DNA from: Bacteroidales bacterium
GTDB taxonomy: Bacteria; Bacteroidota; Bacteroidia; Bacteroidales; F082
DNA length: 64,000 nucleotides
Direction of reading: 5' to 3'
NCBI GenBank assembly: GCA_015493525.1
Contig: WGCY01000009.1
Coordinates: 62,001 to 126,000 of the forward strand
The position numbers and the translations under genes were made by a program. The notes beneath the pieces are model-generated. The model did no database searches. It saw only the letters and a list, made by a program, of their open reading frames with translations, and was not told the origin of the DNA. Positions 1-59,863 of the stretch are shown here, piece after piece. Each line of letters begins with the position of its first letter. Positions within the stretch are counted from its first letter, which is position 1.

Positions 1-246
1 ATACTACTGTTGCTTTTTGCAACTTCCGGGGTAAAAAGCCAGGAGATAAAAAGTGTGGAGCAGGCTAACGGTTTAAGTACGGGACAAAAAGCACCGGTTT
101 TCAGTGCTTTGGATGCTGACAGTACTACGTTCCAACTTCAGAAAGCTTTACAAAACGGGCCTCAATTTACCCTGCTGTATGATGAAGGATACCGCATTGT
201 AAAAGCCTATGATGTTGCGTTTAAACGGATGCTTAAGCAGGGTTAA
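1..246 (+). pseudogene. Peroxiredoxin-like (AhpC/TSA) remnant, 5' end outside window
   Basis: The frame is open to the window edge, and its first residues (ILLLLFATSGVKSQ) read as the end of a signal peptide, so the gene starts upstream. The rest matches the start of a secreted redoxin (GQKAPVFSALDAD...LQNGP) and then jumps directly to a segment normally about 45-50 residues further on (FTLLYDEGYRIVKAYDVAF). The region that should hold the active-site cysteine(s) is missing although the frame is kept, and the protein stops soon after. It overlaps the 3' end of the convergent serine hydrolase gene by 14 bp. I read this as a decayed peroxiredoxin with an in-frame internal deletion. A short non-catalytic protein is the alternative. 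Confidence 0.6.
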
Positions 247-1357
247 TAGCCGGAAGGAGATAGTCTTCGATAAACAGGAGCGGACGTTGCCAGTTTTTAT
301 CTTCCGGAAACCAGGAGGTTATGGCAATGACAACCTGTAACGAAGGAATGATGACCACATACTGCCCGCCATATCCCAAAGCAATAACGGCCTGGAAAGT
401 TTTTCCGTTGGAAACAAGTGCCCGATGCCAAAACAAATAGCCGTAGCCATCCAATTCGCCCCAATAGCGCGGGTTAAAATGAAAATATTCCCGCGTTGCC
501 TCATTCATCCATTTTGCAGGAACAATCTGTCGGTTATTCCATCTGCCATGGCTTAAAACCAGTTGCCCCAGTTTGGCCATGTCGCGTGGTGCCAGAAAAA
601 GGCCGCCCCCCAGTTCGGGTTCACCCACTTTGTCGGTATAAAACCATTGATATTTTTTTATGTCCAGCGGTTGAAAAAGCAGGCTGTCCATAAATTTTTT
701 GAGGCTGAGGTGCAACGGGAGAAGGGCCGTAGTCAACATATCGCCCAGCGTATTGGTGAGGGCTGTGCGGTAGTCGAAAACGGTGCCGGGCGTATGAGCC
801 AGCGGTTTTGAAAACATGTATCTTGCAAAGTGTGCCGGCAGCAGGCTGTCGCTGTGCTCGTTTCCGGCAAATCCGGCCGACATGGTCAGAATGTGCCTGA
901 TTGTAATTTTATCTTTGCCGGATGACCAGTTTATGGTTGTTAGCTTTGGCAAAAGGGATTGGGCGGTTTGGTTTACATCCTTTATCAATCCGTGGTTGAT
1001 GGCAATACCTGCTACCAGCGAGGTAAAACTTTTGGTTACCGATTGCATGGTGGTGAGGTCGCCTTTGTGGTAACCAAAAGGCCCGGCGTGGTAAAATTCA
1101 TCAAATATCAAATAACCATTCCGGACAATGGTAAGGGTGTGAATATTGGAAAATGAAGTGTCATTTTTCAGGATGTTGTCTATCCGGGCGATCTTCGAAA
1201 CATCGATTTGCTGGGCTGACAGGGAGGAGACCTGCCATCCATCGTCCGTAACGGGTGGCGGTAAAAATTCAGGAGTGGGAAGCTTACATTTTATACAACT
1301 TCCCAGGAAAATTACCAGCAACAACAAAAAAGCCGCTAAACTTTTAACCTTAACCAT
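233..1357 (-). CDS. Lipoprotein serine hydrolase, class C beta-lactamase/PBP-like fold
   Basis: A 374-residue protein starting with a lipoprotein signal (hydrophobic stretch then LGSC, Cys21 as lipidation site), so it is probably membrane-anchored and faces the periplasm. The SxxK motif of the beta-lactamase/penicillin-binding family is at Ser106-Lys109 (SVTK), a candidate tyrosine motif lies in FDYRTALTN near residue 198, and GYGGQYV near the C-terminus stands where the KTG/HTG box usually is. Family members include esterases, D-amino-acid peptidases and penicillin-binding-like enzymes; the substrate cannot be told. It is the last gene of a leftward operon and overlaps the response regulator gene by 8 bp, so translation is probably coupled and its role tied to that signalling system. 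Confidence 0.85.
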   Translation of the reverse strand: MVKVKSLAAFLLLLVIFLGSCIKCKLPTPEFLPPPVTDDGWQVSSLSAQQIDVSKIARIDNILKNDTSFSNIHTLTIVRNGYLIFDEFYHAGPFGYHKGDLTTMQSVTKSFTSLVAGIAINHGLIKDVNQTAQSLLPKLTTINWSSGKDKITIRHILTMSAGFAGNEHSDSLLPAHFARYMFSKPLAHTPGTVFDYRTALTNTLGDMLTTALLPLHLSLKKFMDSLLFQPLDIKKYQWFYTDKVGEPELGGGLFLAPRDMAKLGQLVLSHGRWNNRQIVPAKWMNEATREYFHFNPRYWGELDGYGYLFWHRALVSNGKTFQAVIALGYGGQYVVIIPSLQVVIAITSWFPEDKNWQRPLLFIEDYLLPAINPA

Positions 1358-2756
1358 TCTTATTTTCCTTTCCTTCTTTCACTCGTTTTATTGTTTTGTG
1401 CAATGTTGTTCTGTCAATGTTTAATTCGTGGGCTGCCCGGGTAATATTATGGTCATACTTTTTCAGGATGGTTTCAATAAAATATCTCTCTATCTGGCGC
1501 GAGGCACTGTCGGCAGCTTTTTTGCGTACTTCAATCATCTCATCCCAGGTTTCCATTATGGGGAGGGTATCATCAAAGAAATTGATGTCGCCCAACCGTT
1601 GCCTGTCGGGGATGTTGAGGACAATCTCATCAGAGCTTTGCGAAAGCACCACGGCCCGCATCACAAAATTATAAAGTTCCCTCACATTTCCGGGCCAGTC
1701 GTAATGCTGCAACAGCTTTAAAGATTCTTCGGCAAAATTTTTGAGCGGTAACTTGGCCTCTATGGAAGCCGTTTTTGTAAAATGCCTGACCAGCAGGGGG
1801 ATATCGGCTTTTCTTTCCCGCAAAGGGGGAACATCGATACGCAGGATTTCCAGCCGGTAATACAAATCTTCCCTGAATTGTCCCTGTTGCACCAGCGTTT
1901 CCAGCTTCCGGTTGGTGGCAGCAATTACACGGGCATTGGTTTTTATAAGGTTGGCACCTCCCACACGGTGAAACTCTTTTTCCTGCAATACCCTGAGCAG
2001 GGCAACTTGTGCCCGCTGGTCCAGTTCACCGATTTCATCCAGAAAAAGGGTGCCTTCGCCTGCCAGCTCAAATTTTCCCGGTCTCCGCGAATCGGCACCG
2101 GTAAAAGCCCCTTTTTCGTGCCCGAAAAGTTCGCTTTCCAACAGCTCTTTGGGAATGGCTGCACAGTTTACGGCAATAAACGGCTTGTCCGCCCGGTCGC
2201 TGAGCTGATGGATTTGGCGTGTTACCAATTCTTTGCCTGTACCACTTTCCCCATAAACCAAAACGGTGCTGCTGTTGTTGGCAAAAAGCCTGATTTGTTC
2301 CCTGAGCCGTTGCATAATGGGCGTTTCGCCAATCAACTCCTTAAAAGATTTTTCCACCTCCTCTTCCAATGTTTTTGCCCGAAGCTTGATGAGCCGGTGT
2401 TCCAGGGCTTTCTCCATTTGAATTTTTAGTTCCGAAATCCGCGTTGTTTTGGAAAGGTAATCATACGCTCCTTTTTTAATGGCTTTTATGGCCGTTTCCA
2501 CCGAGCTGTAATCGGTAATCATAATGATGGGCACGTTTTCGTCTTCCATTTTGATGAGGTCGATGGCCGATAGGCCGCTCTCACCGTTTTTCAGCATGAG
2601 GTCCAGCAGGATCAGGTCGGGGGCCTGTTTTCGTAAAAGGGCAATACCCTGCCGGATGTTTTCTGCCGAAACCGTTTGGAAATCCTTTTTCAACAACAGT
2701 TTTAAATCTGCCGTGTAGTTGACATCATCGTCAATAATCAAGATGATTCGTTTCAT
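1350..2756 (-). CDS. NtrC-family sigma-54-dependent response regulator
   Basis: A 468-residue regulator with three domains in order. Residues 1-120 are a receiver domain with the acidic pocket DDD at 9-11 and phospho-acceptor Asp52 (LLDLML). Residues about 140-370 are an AAA+ sigma-54 activator domain with Walker A GESGTGKE, the GAFTGA loop that contacts sigma-54, and a Walker B-like LFLDEIGEL. The C-terminus is a Fis-type helix-turn-helix ([20 protein letters not shown]). It should activate sigma-54 promoters after phosphorylation. Its start overlaps the end of the upstream sensor kinase gene by 4 bp, so the two form a cognate pair; the downstream serine hydrolase is co-transcribed. Target promoters cannot be deduced from this window. 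Confidence 0.95.
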
Positions 2757-5700
2757 TTTTTGCTTCCTTTTTGTAATTCAATGACGAAAGTTGTCCGTTG
2801 ATGGGGGACGCTGGTCTTGACATAAATCCGCCCGCCATATTTTTTAAGGGTCTCTTTGGCATAAAAAAGCCCGTAACCTGTGCTGTGTGTAGAGGAATAG
2901 CCATTCTCAAAAATTTTCTCCTGCTCTTCTTCCGGAATACCTTTGCCGTTGTCGGTAATTTCGATAAAAATGCGCGGGTCGTCTTTCAGTAATTTGATTA
3001 TCAATCTTTTCTCCGGGTTTTTCCCCATAGCTTTCACCGCGTTTCGGATGCAGTTGTCCAAAATATTGGCCAATGCCACGGCATCCATTAACGCAGCATT
3101 TTCGCCGGAAAGTAAATCAATGGTTTTCAATTCAATGTTATGGGATGTGGCCAGGTTTTCCAACTCTTCGCGCAGGTTGTTGAGGATGAGGGACGGGTAA
3201 CACGAATGGCCGGCAAAGATTACGTTTTTGAGCAACGAAAGGGCCTCCCTGAGCTTCATTATGGCGGTCGTCAGATATGTTTTGTCCAATGGCCCCATTT
3301 GGGAAAAATCGGAGGAGAGGAACCTGATCATCCCGTTCTTGTTCTTTATGATTTCGGGCAACAGTTCCCGGTTTTTGTTGCTTTTCTCGCTGATGGAAAT
3401 GATTTCGTTAATGACCGGAAGTGTAAGGCTGAAAAAGGTTTCTTTCCTTTTCTCAAAAGGTTGAAGAAAGTCTTTGTCGCGCAGGTCATCCACCGACATG
3501 TTTTCGAAAAAGAGTTGCAGGCTGTTGAGGTTGCTGGCGGCCCAGGCACCGTGGGCAAAATTCTGCAAAGCCTGAAACAGGGCATAATCATTTTCTTTTT
3601 CCGATTTAAGGCCGGAAAACCTTTTTATCCAGAGGAAAAATCCCAGGGGACCGAAAGAGCCGGAAAAGATCACAGCGAGGGGAAGATAATATTTCAGGCC
3701 CGTTCCATCCCGGTTTAACACCAAAAGCAAAATAGCGAAGATTATGAGGTTCAGTGAGACGATGATGGTTGTTAACCGTACATCCCACCGGAATTTCTCC
3801 GTGCCGTATTGAATGGTGAACATTAAAAAAAACAATCCCAGCAAAATGACAATGAGATAAGAGAGAAATTCTTTGTCCCTGAGCAAAATATAGGCTTTGT
3901 TGTCGGCAAGGTAAAACCAGGAAACCGGAGCTGATATTTCGGTTACGTGAAGGGTTCTCCCGGGCAAAAGGTTTCTCAGGATTTTTGTTTTTCCTGCAGG
4001 AAAGACAATCCGGGCATCATACTTTTTTTTGCTGTTTACACCAAAATGAACAATGCGTTCGTTCTGGTAACCCCATCCGGTAAGTTTGCTCCCTGTTTGC
4101 CGGTAACCGGACAAATAGTGGCTGTTGCCGAGATGCCCGGCCTCATAAAGCCAGATTTTGGTACCTATGGCAGCACTGTTCGATTTTATACCGGTAAGCC
4201 GGAAACGAAGATAGTTATTGCTATCTAAATTATTGAGCCAAAGCATATTGCTTCCCTGCCGGAATCCATAAAGGTCTAAATCGCCATCGTTGTCTATGTC
4301 TCCCGTAGCCACAAACTCAACCTTCCCGTTTGCTATGCCCATATTTTTTGACCCGTCCACAAACCTGTGGGAAGAATCATTTAGAAAGAGGCAGTTTTTC
4401 CACCTGTTTTCAGTATGCACAGCAATAAACAAGTCGATAAAGCCATTATTGTCAAAGTCTCCTGCTGTGATCTGCCCCCTCTTTTTACCTGTATTTAAAA
4501 CATTCAGCCCTGATTTTCCTGTAATATCTGTGAAATTTCCCTGGCCATCATTTTGTAAAATCCGGATAAACGGTTGTTCGGCAAGCATAACCAGGTCAAG
4601 GTCTCCGTCGTTGTCATAATCAAAAGCCACCATCCCTGATTTTCGTTGCTGGGAACGAAAATTCTTTGGCGTTGGTAACCGGCGGGCTGTCCATCCAGCG
4701 TTATTGTCCTGAAAATAAATAACGTTTGCCCCCCAGTTTCTGCAAACAGCCATATCATCCCATCCATCGTTGTTAAAATCGGCGAAAATAGTTTGTACGT
4801 TCCATCCCCTGAAAATATTTGCCAGTGTAGTATCCGGTACGCTAAAGTTACCGTATCCATTGTTTTTCAGGAAGATAATGCTTCCATTTCCCCATACGCT
4901 GTATCCAAAAACAAGGGCCATGTCCAAATCGCCATCGCGGTCAATATCGGTGAAACTCAAATATTGCAGTGGGTTTACGGCATATTCTTTGGGCATGGGG
5001 ATAGAAGCCGAAAGTTGATATTTTCCAGCCGTTTTTTCAAGGATATTTAAAAAATAATTGTTCTTTCTGTAATCCGGAGAAATTATTTCGGGAACATTGT
5101 CGCCATTCAAATCAAAAGCATAGGAAAAAAAGCCGTTAAACGTGAATTTGTTCAGCCCGAGCGGGCCTGCAAAATTGTTGAAATATTGGCCCTGGTTATT
5201 TAAATACAGGTACGGATGCCGCTCATCGGAAACATTAAACAACAAAATATCCGGGTAAAAGTCATTGTTGAAGTCTGAGAAAATAATGCCGGGATGTAAT
5301 TTGAGATATAAGGAGTTTTTGGCGACTTCCGGTTCGGTATTAATAGGCATATAGGCGTATTTTGGCCCCTCAAGCCCCAGCCGGGAGGCAAAGTCAAGAA
5401 AGAAATTTCCGGTTACCTGATGGTCGTAAAACAGCTGATGACTTCGGTTAAGTAACAGTGCATGGCCGTTACGAAGCTCTTTAAACGATTTGATTTTATA
5501 GAGATAGGGTATGTAGCGTACTTTGCCATTATGGGAAACAATTTTGTAATAGCCATTGTGCATAAGCTTTGCAGTACCTGTAAAAGGTGTACGTTGCGGA
5601 GGGACAGGATGGAAAACTCCATGATACAATTTATAGGGAACCCCTTTAGCGGTGTTAATGTAGAGCGTGTCGCGGATAATTTTCATCCCGCTGACAGCCA

Positions 5701-6304
5701 CCTTTGTGATTTCATCCGGACGATTAAATTGGTGAAACTCTTTTCCGTTCCATGACCATACGCCTTCGTTGTTTGTCCCAAGCCACAGGGTTCCCATTTT
5801 GTCTGCTGCAGCCGAATGGATATGTGAATGAATGGGCGAGGACAACCGTATCCAATGTCCATCCTGCAATTTCAAAATAATGCCAAAATTTCCCGTAGCA
5901 TATAAAGTTTGGGAAACCCTGGTGATTCTGTCCAACGGGGCATTTGTAACCAATGCGTAGTGGATAATTTTTCCGTTCCGTATTTCGGCAATATGCGTCT
6001 TCCAGTCCGTGTCTGTCAGAAAAATAATCAACCGGTTCTCCTCAACAAGCAGGGGAAGATAACTCCGGAAACGGGCAACGGAAAAAAGCTTATTCAACGG
6101 AAAAACAGTCCATTTGCCCCGCACATTATGGAGAATGTTGTTTTCTTCGTCCAGTATCCAGAAATTGGTCAATGAGTTTCCACCTATAATCAATTTAGCC
6201 CGGGCGGGAACTTTTACAGGTTCCCATTTTACCCTTGCTGCCATACTGTTTGAAAAAACAATGAACAGCAAAAGGATAAATATTTTAAGGCTTCTTTTCA
6301 TCAA
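2753..6304 (-). CDS. Composite sensor histidine kinase with propeller, FG-GAP repeats and ASPIC/UnbV-like domain
   Basis: A 1183-residue protein beginning with a signal peptide (about 1-22). The periplasmic part has a two-component-type propeller motif (MGTLWLGTNNEGVWSW) and then about seven FG-GAP/VCBS units from residue 341 to 670, each with a DxDxDGxxD-like loop (for example FDYDNDGDLDLV, GDIDNDGDLDLY). An ASPIC/UnbV-like segment follows (RFRLTGIKSNSAAIGTKIW, about 698-786). Three membrane helices lie near 811-895. The cytoplasmic part has a candidate phospho-acceptor His in QNFAHGAWAASNL (about 913) and an HATPase domain with N box (NILDNCIRNAVKA), G1 (DNGKGIP) and G2 (STGYGLF). It overlaps the NtrC-type regulator by 4 bp. 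The ligand is unknown; FG-GAP propellers often bind calcium, sugars or proteins. Start could be Met2. Confidence 0.9.
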   Translation of the reverse strand: MMKRSLKIFILLLFIVFSNSMAARVKWEPVKVPARAKLIIGGNSLTNFWILDEENNILHNVRGKWTVFPLNKLFSVARFRSYLPLLVEENRLIIFLTDTDWKTHIAEIRNGKIIHYALVTNAPLDRITRVSQTLYATGNFGIILKLQDGHWIRLSSPIHSHIHSAAADKMGTLWLGTNNEGVWSWNGKEFHQFNRPDEITKVAVSGMKIIRDTLYINTAKGVPYKLYHGVFHPVPPQRTPFTGTAKLMHNGYYKIVSHNGKVRYIPYLYKIKSFKELRNGHALLLNRSHQLFYDHQVTGNFFLDFASRLGLEGPKYAYMPINTEPEVAKNSLYLKLHPGIIFSDFNNDFYPDILLFNVSDERHPYLYLNNQGQYFNNFAGPLGLNKFTFNGFFSYAFDLNGDNVPEIISPDYRKNNYFLNILEKTAGKYQLSASIPMPKEYAVNPLQYLSFTDIDRDGDLDMALVFGYSVWGNGSIIFLKNNGYGNFSVPDTTLANIFRGWNVQTIFADFNNDGWDDMAVCRNWGANVIYFQDNNAGWTARRLPTPKNFRSQQRKSGMVAFDYDNDGDLDLVMLAEQPFIRILQNDGQGNFTDITGKSGLNVLNTGKKRGQITAGDFDNNGFIDLFIAVHTENRWKNCLFLNDSSHRFVDGSKNMGIANGKVEFVATGDIDNDGDLDLYGFRQGSNMLWLNNLDSNNYLRFRLTGIKSNSAAIGTKIWLYEAGHLGNSHYLSGYRQTGSKLTGWGYQNERIVHFGVNSKKKYDARIVFPAGKTKILRNLLPGRTLHVTEISAPVSWFYLADNKAYILLRDKEFLSYLIVILLGLFFLMFTIQYGTEKFRWDVRLTTIIVSLNLIIFAILLLVLNRDGTGLKYYLPLAVIFSGSFGPLGFFLWIKRFSGLKSEKENDYALFQALQNFAHGAWAASNLNSLQLFFENMSVDDLRDKDFLQPFEKRKETFFSLTLPVINEIISISEKSNKNRELLPEIIKNKNGMIRFLSSDFSQMGPLDKTYLTTAIMKLREALSLLKNVIFAGHSCYPSLILNNLREELENLATSHNIELKTIDLLSGENAALMDAVALANILDNCIRNAVKAMGKNPEKRLIIKLLKDDPRIFIEITDNGKGIPEEEQEKIFENGYSSTHSTGYGLFYAKETLKKYGGRIYVKTSVPHQRTTFVIELQKGSKK

Positions 6305-6383
6305 ATCAGGCTTTAACAGGCTGTGGACAGACGCTTCCTCATTGTAGAAATACTTTTCTATAGTTGGGGGTTGTCCAACGCTT

Positions 6384-6391: not shown

Positions 6392-6472
6392 AGTAAAAAA
6401 ACTAAATAACAAGCAGTTCCGGTTTGTGGCACGTTCCTTGGCAACAGAGAGGGAAACAAGACAAAAGAGGAT

Positions 6473-6688
6473 ATGGGAAAACAGAACCATGAATTTAAAA
6501 TTTGCCCGGGTTGTAATTTTTTCTGCACAAAAGAGGAGACGAATGTTTATTGCCCTTACTGTGGTGAAAAACTCATCGACAGTTGCCCTGAGTGTGGCGA
6601 ACCGATTACAACACCTTATGCCAGCTTTTGTACAAAGTGCGGAAGCCTGTACCCGGGAAGGACCGTTGATAAAAGAAAACAGTTATAA
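6473..6688 (+). CDS. Small double zinc-ribbon protein
   Basis: A 71-residue soluble protein with four CxxC knuckles: CPGC, CPYC, CPEC and CTKC, spaced to form two zinc ribbons of the double-zinc-ribbon type. Such modules bind zinc and often mediate RNA, DNA or protein contacts; no catalytic domain is attached. A purine stretch (AAAAGAGG) sits directly before the ATG. It lies 17 bp upstream of the secreted protein at 6706 and may be co-transcribed with it, though the link in function is unclear. Confidence 0.75.
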   Translation: MGKQNHEFKICPGCNFFCTKEETNVYCPYCGEKLIDSCPECGEPITTPYASFCTKCGSLYPGRTVDKRKQL

Positions 6689-6705: not shown

Positions 6706-7530
6706 ATGAAAACAATGCAAAAAATTTCGATGTTATTGGTAGCGGTATTGACCGTAAGTATGGCATTTGGCCAAATGAAGTACAAACCCAAAGTGAAAGT
6801 GATGGTAGTCGTTTTAGGGCCTAAGAATCCTACTTTTGATGAGGCCAAATTTTCTAATCTGCATTTTTACTATTTACCCGATATTAAGCTGAGTAAAAAT
6901 GGTGGGATTTACGGAAAAGCTTCTAAAAACACAAACAAGAATGCATGGTCATCGGCATTGGGAGTGGGGGCTACCTCACATGCTGAAGTTTTTCAGGATT
7001 ATACAGGAGAACCTGCTATTTTGGTCGAAAAGCATATTAGTTCAGGGACCTCTTACATTTTTGATAAAAACGGGCGTGTGAATGCCGAGTTGATTGGCAC
7101 AAACGATATTTATTTTAACAATAAGACCCAATTTATGGTGGGCTTCAATAAAATGAAGCGAAGTTGGGAAACAGAATCTTTTGGCGACTTGATGAAATCG
7201 CTGGTGAAAAAAGGGGAGACCATGAAACCGCCCAAAAAATCGAAAACCACTTCACACCTGATTGGAAAAGAATTGTATGCGTTTCAGGCTGTTGACAAGG
7301 AGGGGAATAAAGTGGAAGTAAATAGCCTGGTAAAAGGCAATCCGGCAACCTTACTTCTCTTTTTGTATATAAGCCCCGAATATAATTTTAACAAGGGAAA
7401 AGAAAGTGGTGCCGGGAAAAAAGGAAAGGATTACATGAACCAGGTGTCGCAAACTGCAGCTGCTGATAAGCAAATTGCTCCGCTTTACAACCTGGAAAAA
7501 GGAATTTTCGGAAAAAGGATTGAACATTAA
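6706..7530 (+). CDS. Secreted protein with a cysteine-free redoxin-like C-terminal half
   Basis: A 274-residue protein with a clear signal peptide (MKTMQKISMLLVAVLTVSMAFG). I do not recognise a named family. The second half starts like an AhpC/TlpA redoxin (IGKELYAFQAVDKEGNKVEV...NPATLLLFLYISPEYN), but where the catalytic CxxC would stand there is SPEYN, and the whole protein has no cysteine. It therefore cannot do thiol chemistry; a binding or structural role on a thioredoxin-like fold is an inference. The protein is lysine-rich. The next gene (a T9SS cargo) begins 11 bp downstream, suggesting a short operon of exported proteins. Confidence 0.65.
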   Translation: MKTMQKISMLLVAVLTVSMAFGQMKYKPKVKVMVVVLGPKNPTFDEAKFSNLHFYYLPDIKLSKNGGIYGKASKNTNKNAWSSALGVGATSHAEVFQDYTGEPAILVEKHISSGTSYIFDKNGRVNAELIGTNDIYFNNKTQFMVGFNKMKRSWETESFGDLMKSLVKKGETMKPPKKSKTTSHLIGKELYAFQAVDKEGNKVEVNSLVKGNPATLLLFLYISPEYNFNKGKESGAGKKGKDYMNQVSQTAAADKQIAPLYNLEKGIFGKRIEH

Positions 7531-7541
7531 TAAGTGATAAA

Positions 7542-8438
7542 ATGAAAAATTTTATAATGTTATGTATGCTGCTGTTATCAGCAGTGTTGTCTTTTGGACA
7601 AATTACCTCGACCTCATCCGGTGGCTACTGGAAAGATACCTCCACATGGATTGGCGGAATCATTCCTGTGGACACAAATGATGTTGTTATTGATGGAAAC
7701 GTTATCTTGGATGGTTACGGACATGCTTGTAATAATCTGACTATTAATAGCGGAGATACACTTTATAATATTTCAACCAGCAGTAACAATTTAAAAATTT
7801 ATGGAAATATTTTGAATAACGGTACAGTGCTTGTTAAGGCCAGTTATACGCTTTATCCTTATGGGGATATTGTAAACAATGGAGCCTGGGATACCTATAG
7901 TACCAAATTAGAATATGGAACATCGGATGAATTAATAGAAATTAACGGGCCTTTCACTTTTACTTTGTTTCGGATAAATGCGAATGTGAATGGTGCCGGT
8001 TCTTACCAGTGGTACAAAGATGGCCAGGCTATTTCCGGCGCCACCGGTTCAAGGTATTATTTACATGCCGATGAAGATTATGCCGGTAAGTATTATTGCC
8101 AAACAGATGCCGGCGACTCCCGAAAGGTTACTATTGTCAATAAAACCACAGGTATTGGCAATCATCAGGCCATCATCGACCGGTTGCTCTCGCAAAATTA
8201 CCCCAACCCGTTTACGGCACAAACACATATTCCGTTTAAGTTGGATAAAAAATCCAATGTTCATCTTGTGATTTATAACAGTCTGGGACAAAAAATTGCC
8301 GAGCCGGTTTCGGGCACGCTGAATGCAGGGAACCATAAAGTAACCTTTGATGGCTCATCGTTGCAGCCCGGTATCTATTTCTACCGGCTGGAAGTGGATG
8401 GAATGAGCACAACAAAACGGATGGTTATTCTAAAATAA
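7542..8438 (+). CDS. T9SS-exported surface protein with Ig-like domain
   Basis: A 298-residue secreted protein with a signal peptide (about 1-19). An N-terminal beta-rich region (GGYWKDTSTWIGGIIPVDTNDVVIDG) resembles the starts of many right-handed-helix or G8-like surface proteins. Next is an Ig-like stretch (YQWYKDGQAISGATG...YYCQTDAG). Residues about 220-298 are a typical type A C-terminal sorting domain of type IX secretion (LSQNYPNPF, then NSLGQKI, GIYFYRLE and the ending KRMVILK). It should be exported across the outer membrane by T9SS and anchored or released. A strong terminator follows 22 bp later. Its binding partner is unknown. Confidence 0.88.
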   Translation: MKNFIMLCMLLLSAVLSFGQITSTSSGGYWKDTSTWIGGIIPVDTNDVVIDGNVILDGYGHACNNLTINSGDTLYNISTSSNNLKIYGNILNNGTVLVKASYTLYPYGDIVNNGAWDTYSTKLEYGTSDELIEINGPFTFTLFRINANVNGAGSYQWYKDGQAISGATGSRYYLHADEDYAGKYYCQTDAGDSRKVTIVNKTTGIGNHQAIIDRLLSQNYPNPFTAQTHIPFKLDKKSNVHLVIYNSLGQKIAEPVSGTLNAGNHKVTFDGSSLQPGIYFYRLEVDGMSTTKRMVILK

Positions 8439-53364: not shown

Positions 53365-53439
53365 TGGGACATACTGGATTCGAACCAGTGACCCCCGCCC
53401 TGTCAAGGCGATGCTCTAAACCAACTGAGCTAATGTCCC
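53365..53439 (-). tRNA. tRNA-Val (GAC)
   Basis: Minus-strand cloverleaf with 7-bp acceptor GGGACAT/ATGTCCC, D-arm GCTC/GAGC, T-loop TTCGAAT, and a 7-nt anticodon loop TTGACAG. CCA is not encoded. Confidence 0.92.
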
Positions 53440-53456
53440 TTATAAAAGAAAAACGG

Positions 53457-53531
53457 TGGGACATATTGGATTCGAACCAATGACCCCTGCTCTGTGAAAG
53501 CAATGCTCTAAACCAACTGAGCTAATGTCCC
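53457..53531 (-). tRNA. tRNA-Val (CAC)
   Basis: Minus-strand cloverleaf nearly identical to the neighbouring tRNA-Val except in the anticodon arm and T stem; anticodon loop TTCACAG. It is first in the pair, 17 bp upstream of the GAC gene. Confidence 0.92.
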
Positions 53532-58012: not shown

Positions 58013-58086
58013 GCCAGCATAGCTCAGTTGGCCAGAGCAGCTGATTTGTAATCAGCCGGTCGGGGGTTCGAATCCCTCTGCTGGCT
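58013..58086 (+). tRNA. tRNA-Thr (TGT)
   Basis: Acceptor GCCAGCA/TGCTGGC, T-loop TTCGAAT, anticodon loop TTTGTAA. Confidence 0.95.
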
Positions 58087-58113
58087 CAGTTCATTAACAT
58101 TTTGAAATTAAAC

Positions 58114-58195
58114 GGGGGGATACCGAAGCGGTCAAACGGGGCAGACTGTAAATCTGTTGGCTTAGCCTTCGGAGGTTCGAATCCTCCTCCCCCCA
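58114..58195 (+). tRNA. tRNA-Tyr (GTA)
   Basis: Class II tRNA with a long variable arm, acceptor GGGGGGA/TCCCCCC, anticodon GTA in CTGTAAA. CCA is encoded directly after the end (58196-58198). Confidence 0.95.
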
Positions 58196-58207
58196 CCAGA
58201 GTAAGGA

Positions 58208-58300
58208 AAAAGAGAAAAGGAAAAAGTAAAAAGTAAAAAGTAAAAAGGGAAACCAATACTTCTTTAAATTTTTAACTTTAAACTTTTAACTTTAAACCTG
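58208..58300. repeat. Short AT-rich tandem repeats between tRNA-Tyr and tRNA-Gly
   Basis: Three copies of AAAAAGT near 58220-58245, then two copies of a TTTTAACTTTAAAC unit at about 58268-58298. These are simple direct repeats in a spacer; not CRISPR (units too short, no spacers). Confidence 0.7.
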
Positions 58301-58304
58301 ACAA

Positions 58305-58377
58305 GCGGGAGTAGCTCATCTGGTAGAGCGACAGCCTTCCAAGCTGTAGGTGGCCGGTTCGAGCCCGGTTTCCCGCT
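58305..58377 (+). tRNA. tRNA-Gly (TCC)
   Basis: Acceptor GCGGGAG/TTCCCGC (one G-T), T-loop TTCGAGC, anticodon loop CTTCCAA. Confidence 0.95.
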
Positions 58378-58385
58378 CTGGTTTT

Positions 58386-58457
58386 GCCGGGGTAGCTCAG
58401 GGGTAGAGCACTTCCTTGGTAAGGAAGGGGTCACGAGTTCAATTCTCGTCCTCGGCT
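58386..58457 (+). tRNA. tRNA-Thr (GGT)
   Basis: Acceptor GCCGGGG/CCTCGGC, T-loop TTCAATT, anticodon loop TTGGTAA. Located 66 bp before tuf. Confidence 0.95.
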
Positions 58458-59790: not shown

Positions 59791-59863
59791 ACGGGTGTAG
59801 CTCAATTGGTAGAGTAGTGGTCTCCAAAACCATTGGTTGTGGGTTCGATTCCTACCACCCGTG
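59791..59863 (+). tRNA. tRNA-Trp (CCA)
   Basis: Acceptor ACGGGTG/CACCCGT, T-loop TTCGATT, anticodon loop CTCCAAA. Lies 15 bp before secE, a very common order. Confidence 0.95.

Follow-up and report, generated by a model that had tools for sequence, protein, structure and literature searches.

The subject of this work is a sensor histidine kinase encoded in a stretch of 64,000 nucleotides from a Bacteroidales bacterium of the F082 lineage (assembly GCA_015493525.1, contig WGCY01000009.1, positions 62,001 to 126,000), hereafter the window, to which coordinates refer unless another locus is named. The protein (1182 amino acids; 2753..6301, minus strand) starts with a signal peptide, followed by a propeller; seven FG-GAP repeats then lead to an UnbV/ASPIC-type domain, and beyond three membrane helices comes a histidine kinase. 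This architecture is undescribed in the literature searched, yet part of a wider family. By its profiles, the outer part is half hybrid-sensor and half CRTAC1. The kinase and an NtrC-type response regulator encoded next to it are probably wired to one neighbouring operon of exported proteins.

The reading that we consider reasonably probable is a dedicated two-component switch, running from an envelope ligand through the kinase and the NtrC-type regulator to the divergent operon. In such a switch, the periplasmic BT4663-type propeller, the FG-GAP propeller and the UnbV-type domain would bind an envelope or external ligand, while calcium would probably stabilise the FG-GAP blades. The signal would then pass the three helices to a divergent phosphoacceptor region, where H917 would be phosphorylated, and the phosphate would move to the regulator. 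Once bound to two tandem sites 21 bp apart, the regulator and sigma-54 would switch on an operon for a small zinc ribbon protein and exported, partly type-IX-secreted proteins. The domains, the gene order, the conserved sites with their spacings, rpoN and the pairing of sensor and output are read from the sequence. Starting from this anatomy we infer the steps from ligand to DNA binding, that is, the ligand itself, the part of calcium, the role of H917 and phosphotransfer, and likewise the single operon and the sign of regulation.

The kinase gene and its domain layout

In the list of open reading frames (ORFs) of the window, the kinase occupies a single intact frame of 1183 codons (2753-6304, minus strand), which opens with an in-frame TTG at 6304. 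The ATG at 6301, directly after it, is favoured as the likelier start. The signal peptide (about residues 1-22; 6236..6301, minus strand) was recognised by hydropathy, with its cleavage site placed by eye. A Pfam scan of the single protein gave FG-GAP_3 in five stretches (E-value 1.6e-29) and HATPase_c (1.3e-19), together with two matches under the cut-off, UnbV_ASPIC (6e-4; 20.1 bits versus a cut-off of 23.4) and Reg_prop (0.048), and no HisKA match. Weak domains were tested by family profiles against chains of the PDB. An earlier interpretation of this DNA made from its letters (the sequence-only reading) had placed a propeller, FG-GAP repeats, an UnbV-like domain, three membrane helices and a kinase in one chain, and every one of these parts was borne out by Pfam, the family profiles or hydropathy. 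Moreover, the domain search that it had called for revealed two propeller types and an UnbV-like match, and not one standard propeller lacking UnbV. Six close relatives are 41-96% identical to the window kinase and four of them keep the entire domain order, the other two (L010 and L011) being truncated by contig ends; since this order recurs in close relatives, the kinase is not an assembly artefact.

Partner regulator, promoter and divergent genes

The response regulator gene (1350..2756, minus strand) overlaps the kinase stop by 4 bases and encodes a receiver, a sigma-54 activator domain with a GAFTGA motif and a Fis helix-turn-helix (HTH); the genome also contains rpoN. We refer to the combination of a window-type kinase with an NtrC-type regulator as class A. 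A regulator-type gene follows the kinase in all ten class A loci with downstream DNA (the window, L009, L012, L125, L126, L170, L171, L172, L182 and L197). Receiver and sigma-54 activator were found by Pfam in the two regulators scanned (window and L197), the other class A regulators being assigned by sequence, and an exact GAFTGA occurs in the window regulator and 5 of the other nine. The next gene in the window, for a beta-lactamase-fold serine hydrolase (233-1357), overlaps the regulator gene by 8 bases; as a part of the system it was rejected, because a different gene follows the regulator in L009, L125 and L126.

Seven regions between the kinase and its divergent gene were compared (the window, L009-L012, L125 and L126, with the window and L010 as near copies; L009, L010 and L011 are the loci of genomes G299, G305 and G297). 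All seven contain a dyad of the form TGTRGA-N8-TCYAYA, which in the window reads TGTAGA-N8-TCTATA (6343..6362) and would be the proximal site of the regulator. A second, imperfect dyad-like site lies 21 bp further up (6322..6341) and starts with TGTGG in six of the seven regions. The window has a sigma-54-type -24/-12 promoter, TGGCACG-N4-TTGGC (6427..6442, plus strand), and in all seven regions the distance from the dyad centre to the GG of TGGYAY-N5-TTG, or a close variant, is 75 bp (76 in L125). When the near copy is left out, the mean pairwise identity among the six regions reaches 0.90 in the dyad arms, compared with 0.46 in the spacer and 0.53 over all non-arm columns.

Counts in the window and in its own genome help to weigh these sites. 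With up to one mismatch, the window holds 4 dyads versus 1.06 expected, a number that 6 of 100 shuffles also reached. The sigma-54 pattern alone occurs 19 times versus 17.06 expected, which is not significant, and one-mismatch sigma-54 sites are found at two positions, 6427 and 32785; for the promoter at 6427, it is the conserved position alone that carries weight. Genome-wide, the dyad pattern gave 5 matches versus 1 for a reversed control, and only the window dyad is followed by a good sigma-54 site (10 of 12 positions). The other four reach 6 to 8 of 12 positions at best, so a wider regulon was not supported by the dyad search. Two of these four dyads, at L132 position 1107 and L135 position 1500, precede by 29 and 39 bp, respectively, ORFs whose starts resemble signal peptides, the second of them overlapping a long open stretch, and the L132 dyad may precede a type-IX cargo gene. 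The remaining two fall inside open stretches, with no ORF start within 240 bp.

Three genes on the plus strand follow the promoter and would form one operon. The first (6473..6688) encodes a double zinc ribbon protein of 71 amino acids (DZR, 4e-8). DZR was found in all eight zinc ribbon proteins scanned, and the gene, searched for with a regular expression composed after the first examples were seen, is the first divergent gene at 9 of the 10 class A loci whose upstream DNA is available; two of these loci belong to another family, and L011 is partial. The second gene (6706..7530) specifies a protein that is exported and weakly matches a redoxin-like profile. A protein of this kind comes next in the close relatives, where all six copies could be aligned (L012 is 23% identical) and the thioredoxin-family profile match is weak (0.019); redoxin activity was rejected for the window copy, which has no cysteine. 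The product of the third (7542..8438) is likewise exported and bears a sorting tail for type IX secretion (TIGR04183, 2.6e-12), and the divergent genes of L170 and L172 also include type-IX-tailed proteins.

Several observations weigh against the dedicated switch. The dyad pattern was derived from the seven homologous regions themselves, and their shared spacing partly reflects descent. At L170, L171 and L172, the three distant class A loci for which upstream DNA is available, no clear dyad and promoter were found (best score, 8 of 12 positions), and a zinc ribbon gene was not found at L171. Matches to the redoxin-like gene also occur in G298, G304 and G315, relatives that show no class A kinase. 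The type-IX tail of the third gene is present in the window and L126 and was not found in L009 and L125, and the genome holds 51 matches to such tails. The exact GAFTGA is absent from the regulators of L125, L170, L171 and L197. Finally, H917 is followed by Gly, whereas HisKA domains usually have an acidic residue there.

The type-IX tails raise another explanation, self-monitoring of the cell's secretion or surface, in which the sensor would bind a type-IX cargo, the anchor of that cargo at the surface or an exported protein gone astray, and would adjust the output of exported proteins. Tails were found in six of eight exported-looking neighbours (L126, L170 twice, L172, L173 and L166) besides the window's own, although these neighbours were hand-picked, without a control, and the tail-less third genes of L009 and L125 speak against it. 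The two genomic dyads before ORFs with signal-peptide-like starts would also fit, as would PorZ, a type-IX component with two seven-bladed propellers and a beta domain that is likened to BT4663 in PMC5121618, even if PorZ matches our first-propeller profile weakly (0.11). As the genome holds those 51 tail matches, the proximity of type-IX genes is in itself unremarkable, and we regard self-monitoring as unlikely.

The first propeller

The first propeller (about residues 22-325; 5327..6238, minus strand) is of the hybrid-two-component, or Reg_prop, type. Reg_prop was detected at E<=0.1 in single-protein Pfam scans of 5 of the 11 class A members, whose kinases make up our alignment A5. A profile of the first propeller (A8, 10 rows) had as its best PDB match the Bacteroides hybrid sensor BT4663 (4a2l, 1.2e-15), followed by the Bacteroides-type sensors 3v9f and 3ott, with PorZ as the weak match already cited. 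At the level of these profiles, we take the first propeller to be homologous to the propeller of BT4663.

This homology suggests a glycan sensor working as in the hybrid two-component systems, with sugars on the propeller faces inducing a small outer-surface operon, and BT4663 binds disaccharides on both of its propellers according to PMC5121618. On the other side of the balance, domain scans of the window's three divergent genes gave no SusC/SusD or glycoside hydrolase match, and the second propeller and its cap are of the CRTAC1 type. We consider a glycan sensor just as doubtful as self-monitoring; a glycan or protein ligand for the outer part is only an analogy.

The FG-GAP propeller and the UnbV/ASPIC-type domain

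The second propeller (about residues 330-695; 4217..5314, minus strand) is built of the seven FG-GAP repeats, each with a DxDxD-type motif. These motifs stand at residues 343, 397, 452, 508, 561, 615 and 668, and their spacing of 53-56 residues fits one seven-bladed propeller; in the relatives, 6 to 10 such motifs are present. It is followed by the UnbV/ASPIC-type domain (residues 711-784; 3950..4171, minus strand), identified through the relatives and a profile, and under the cut-off in the window protein alone. A profile spanning FG-GAP repeats, UnbV domain and membrane region (A4, 11 rows: five of class A and six of the HisKA_3 type) matched human CRTAC1 (PDB 9etn) at 3.6e-24 in a collinear fashion, the best-scoring part extending across the UnbV region. 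The same profile matched integrin alpha-4 (1.5e-4); the single window protein matched CRTAC1 at 0.002. With a profile restricted to class A (A9), 9etn was matched at 2.1e-12, with the best stretch in the FG-GAP part, and the secreted esterase 9oee at 9.5e-6.

UnbV was found at E<=0.1 in 6 of the 11 class A members by single-protein Pfam scans. Over the relatives, UnbV_ASPIC lies above the Pfam cut-off in L097, L166, L167, L169 and L173 and below it in L093, L095, L098 and L178, and at the thresholds used it was not matched in further relatives such as L094, L096, L101, L170, L172 and L197. L197 (genome G727; frame 120-3371) retains the phosphoacceptor region and the FG-GAP repeats and gives no UnbV match in Pfam scans, so the UnbV domain may be dispensable.

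PMC3123361 reports that related propeller motifs bind calcium, with both stabilising and regulating roles, and calcium binding by the FG-GAP motifs is plausible. Occupancy of the seven regular DxDxD loops could even be the signal, which would make the kinase a calcium or divalent-cation sensor, but such a sensor leaves the first propeller unexplained. The DxDxD motif is, besides, general in FG-GAP proteins without signalling parts, and we judge cation sensing improbable.

Membrane helices, phosphoacceptor region and ATP-binding domain

Apart from the signal peptide, hydropathy shows three hydrophobic helices, two of them clear and the third weak (residues about 811-893; 3623..3871, minus strand), in a region that is aligned in our alignment A3. 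The stretch between the helices and HATPase_c, an unclassified phosphoacceptor/dimerisation-type region with the motif HG[AES]W...N.N (3140..3598, minus strand; 153 amino acids), matched no Pfam HisKA family in nine members even at E up to 10; one of the nine gave a weak SPOB_a match (0.74). The candidate phosphoacceptor, H917 (codon 3551..3553, minus strand), is conserved in all ten class A rows of A5 that span its position, out of the 11 aligned. In A3 it shares a column with the phosphoacceptor His of the HisKA_3 relatives, rows that are 19-21% identical, which is supportive, not proof, of such a role. The chain ends after HATPase_c (residues 1073-1178; 2768..3085, minus strand), with its N, G1, F and G2 motifs intact.

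A profile of the phosphoacceptor region (A6) was run on 395 genomes of the phylum at E up to 1e-3 and matched in nine. Seven of these matches (G000, G470, G509, G555, G700, G727 and G808) reach 1.1e-6 or better and all of them sit in FG-GAP kinases; the other two, in G788 and G508, are near 4e-4 and lie in ORFs that by eye are not kinase-like. Among 149 same-family genomes, 20 matched at E up to 0.01: five belong to the window's genus (1.7e-51 or better), and the other 15 match a part of the profile, with E-values of 2.4e-4 or worse; the kinase copy of G305 ends before this region. The phosphoacceptor region looks like a new family. A catalytically dead kinase or a phosphatase, with the regulator controlled elsewhere, is the least probable of the alternatives: it could draw on the unclassified region, the Gly after H917 and the altered G1 boxes in L170, L171 and L172, but the window kinase has its motifs intact and H917 conserved, and the regulator gene overlaps its own.

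Distribution and evolution of the sensor

The sensor is not limited to class A. From a further 395-genome search, distinct from that with A6, 17 regions with a long frame and a match reaching the membrane helices were fetched, and the class counts that follow are minima because other long FG-GAP frames lie outside the 17 picked. Long FG-GAP frames in which the match stops before the membrane helices also exist (e.g., G692, G774 and G791), and G763:C176:22182-23099 is an FG-GAP/UnbV-type match with six internal stops, likely a decayed copy. The sensor was found on 12 class A kinases, 10 kinases of the HisKA_3 type with a LuxR-type regulator (class B), 8 Ser/Thr kinases (class C) and 1 further variant (class D), L181, where HATPase_c is present and the sigma-54 activator shows no receiver match. 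The window kinase is not a one-off, as the sensor recurs in the phylum.

Class A occurs in 6 of the 12 same-genus genomes listed, and further cases are L012 and, in other families, G470, G509, G555, G700 and G727; among 295 genomes searched at the level of the order, the window protein by itself matched, at E up to 1e-30, its own genome and no other. The ten class B loci (L119-L124 and L166-L169) show the HisKA_3-type H-D-D motif, with HisKA_3 identified by Pfam in all eight scanned, L123 and L168 not being among them. Their neighbour is a LuxR-type-like regulator of 208-214 amino acids (cut by the contig end in L169), a type confirmed in the two scanned. The eight class C loci (L173-L180) end in a protein kinase, identified as Pkinase in all four scanned (L173, L178, L179 and L180) and by motifs in the other four. 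Seven of them have a frame with GAFTGA within 2.6 kb downstream (cut in L177), and in two of these, the two scanned (L173 and L179), the neighbour was confirmed as a GAF and sigma-54 activator. The exception, L175, has no such frame there, and its fetched stretch ends, some 4.5 kb away, in a frame whose beginning resembles such an activator. By their domains and neighbours, these eight loci can be considered a Hanks-type counterpart of the window system.

When a tree was built from the sensor parts of 28 proteins (9 of class A, 10 of B, 8 of C and 1 of D; L010, L011 and L197 were left out), classes A, B and C each fell on one side of a branch, with supports of 100/100, 100/98 and 100/100. In this tree L181 and L172 have long branches and five rows an unlike letter make-up. 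It was also inspected for sensors exchanged between outputs, and no exchange was seen. With each of the three classes forming one clade, every output seems to have been joined to the sensor a single time and retained. Tentatively, and with less confidence than for the switch itself, all these proteins could be seen as an undescribed superfamily of transmembrane receptors of the Bacteroidota, in which an integrin-alpha/CRTAC1-like unit and a second propeller would work as a general outside-in sensor of surface state, fixed once each to a private-phosphoacceptor kinase with NtrC, to HisKA_3 with LuxR and to a Ser/Thr kinase with a GAF/sigma-54 activator, and adjusting exported surface proteins.

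Elsewhere in the window (58013-58457, 53365-53531 and 59791-59863) lie seven tRNA genes, of which four form a cluster.

Significance and comparison with known systems

A literature search, with coverage mostly without subscription papers, found no description of an FG-GAP or UnbV kinase, and the domain order is absent from the searched passages of PMC10574481, PMC7841849 and PMC9620832. This agrees with the sequence-only reading, which knew of no described system with such an order, and described homologues with a known ligand were not found either. That reading is partly supported overall, and it was silent on the likely target of the regulator, on the unclassified phosphoacceptor region and on the closeness of the first propeller to BT4663.

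A CRTAC1-like unit as the outer part of transmembrane kinases would represent a new type of bacterial receptor; to our knowledge, such units are otherwise known only from secreted proteins. Moreover, the one outer part is shared by histidine kinases of two kinds and by Ser/Thr kinases, so that the entry of one signal into a phosphorelay and into Hanks-type signalling can be compared directly. With a single promoter close by as its likely target, the system lends itself to tests by means of a reporter and one purified regulator, and ligand screens could come thereafter.

Among known proteins, those of the CRTAC1/ASPIC-UnbV group (9etn) share the FG-GAP repeats followed by an UnbV-type domain. 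CRTAC1 is secreted and has no kinase or signalling domain, whereas here membrane helices and a kinase come after the FG-GAP/UnbV unit. In hybrid two-component systems, a receiver and an AraC-type HTH are fused in the same chain; here, in contrast, the kinase chain has neither and the output is a separate sigma-54 activator. The Bacteroides hybrid systems (BT4663, 4a2l) resemble the window kinase in the homologous first propeller, and also in a layout of two propellers, one beta domain, membrane and kinase, as given in PMC5121618. The differences are that the second propeller is here of the FG-GAP type and the beta domain is UnbV-like and not Y_Y_Y, for which Pfam scans of the window kinase and its relatives gave no match before the membrane helix. 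PorZ also combines two seven-bladed propellers with a C-terminal beta domain (same source), but it is a surface protein without a kinase and its sequence match is the weak one given above. Finally, the system resembles those of the NtrB/NtrC type in a regulator with receiver, sigma-54 activator and Fis HTH, as well as in the tandem upstream sites and the -24/-12 promoter, and departs from them in its transmembrane double-propeller sensor and in a phosphoacceptor region outside the HisKA families.

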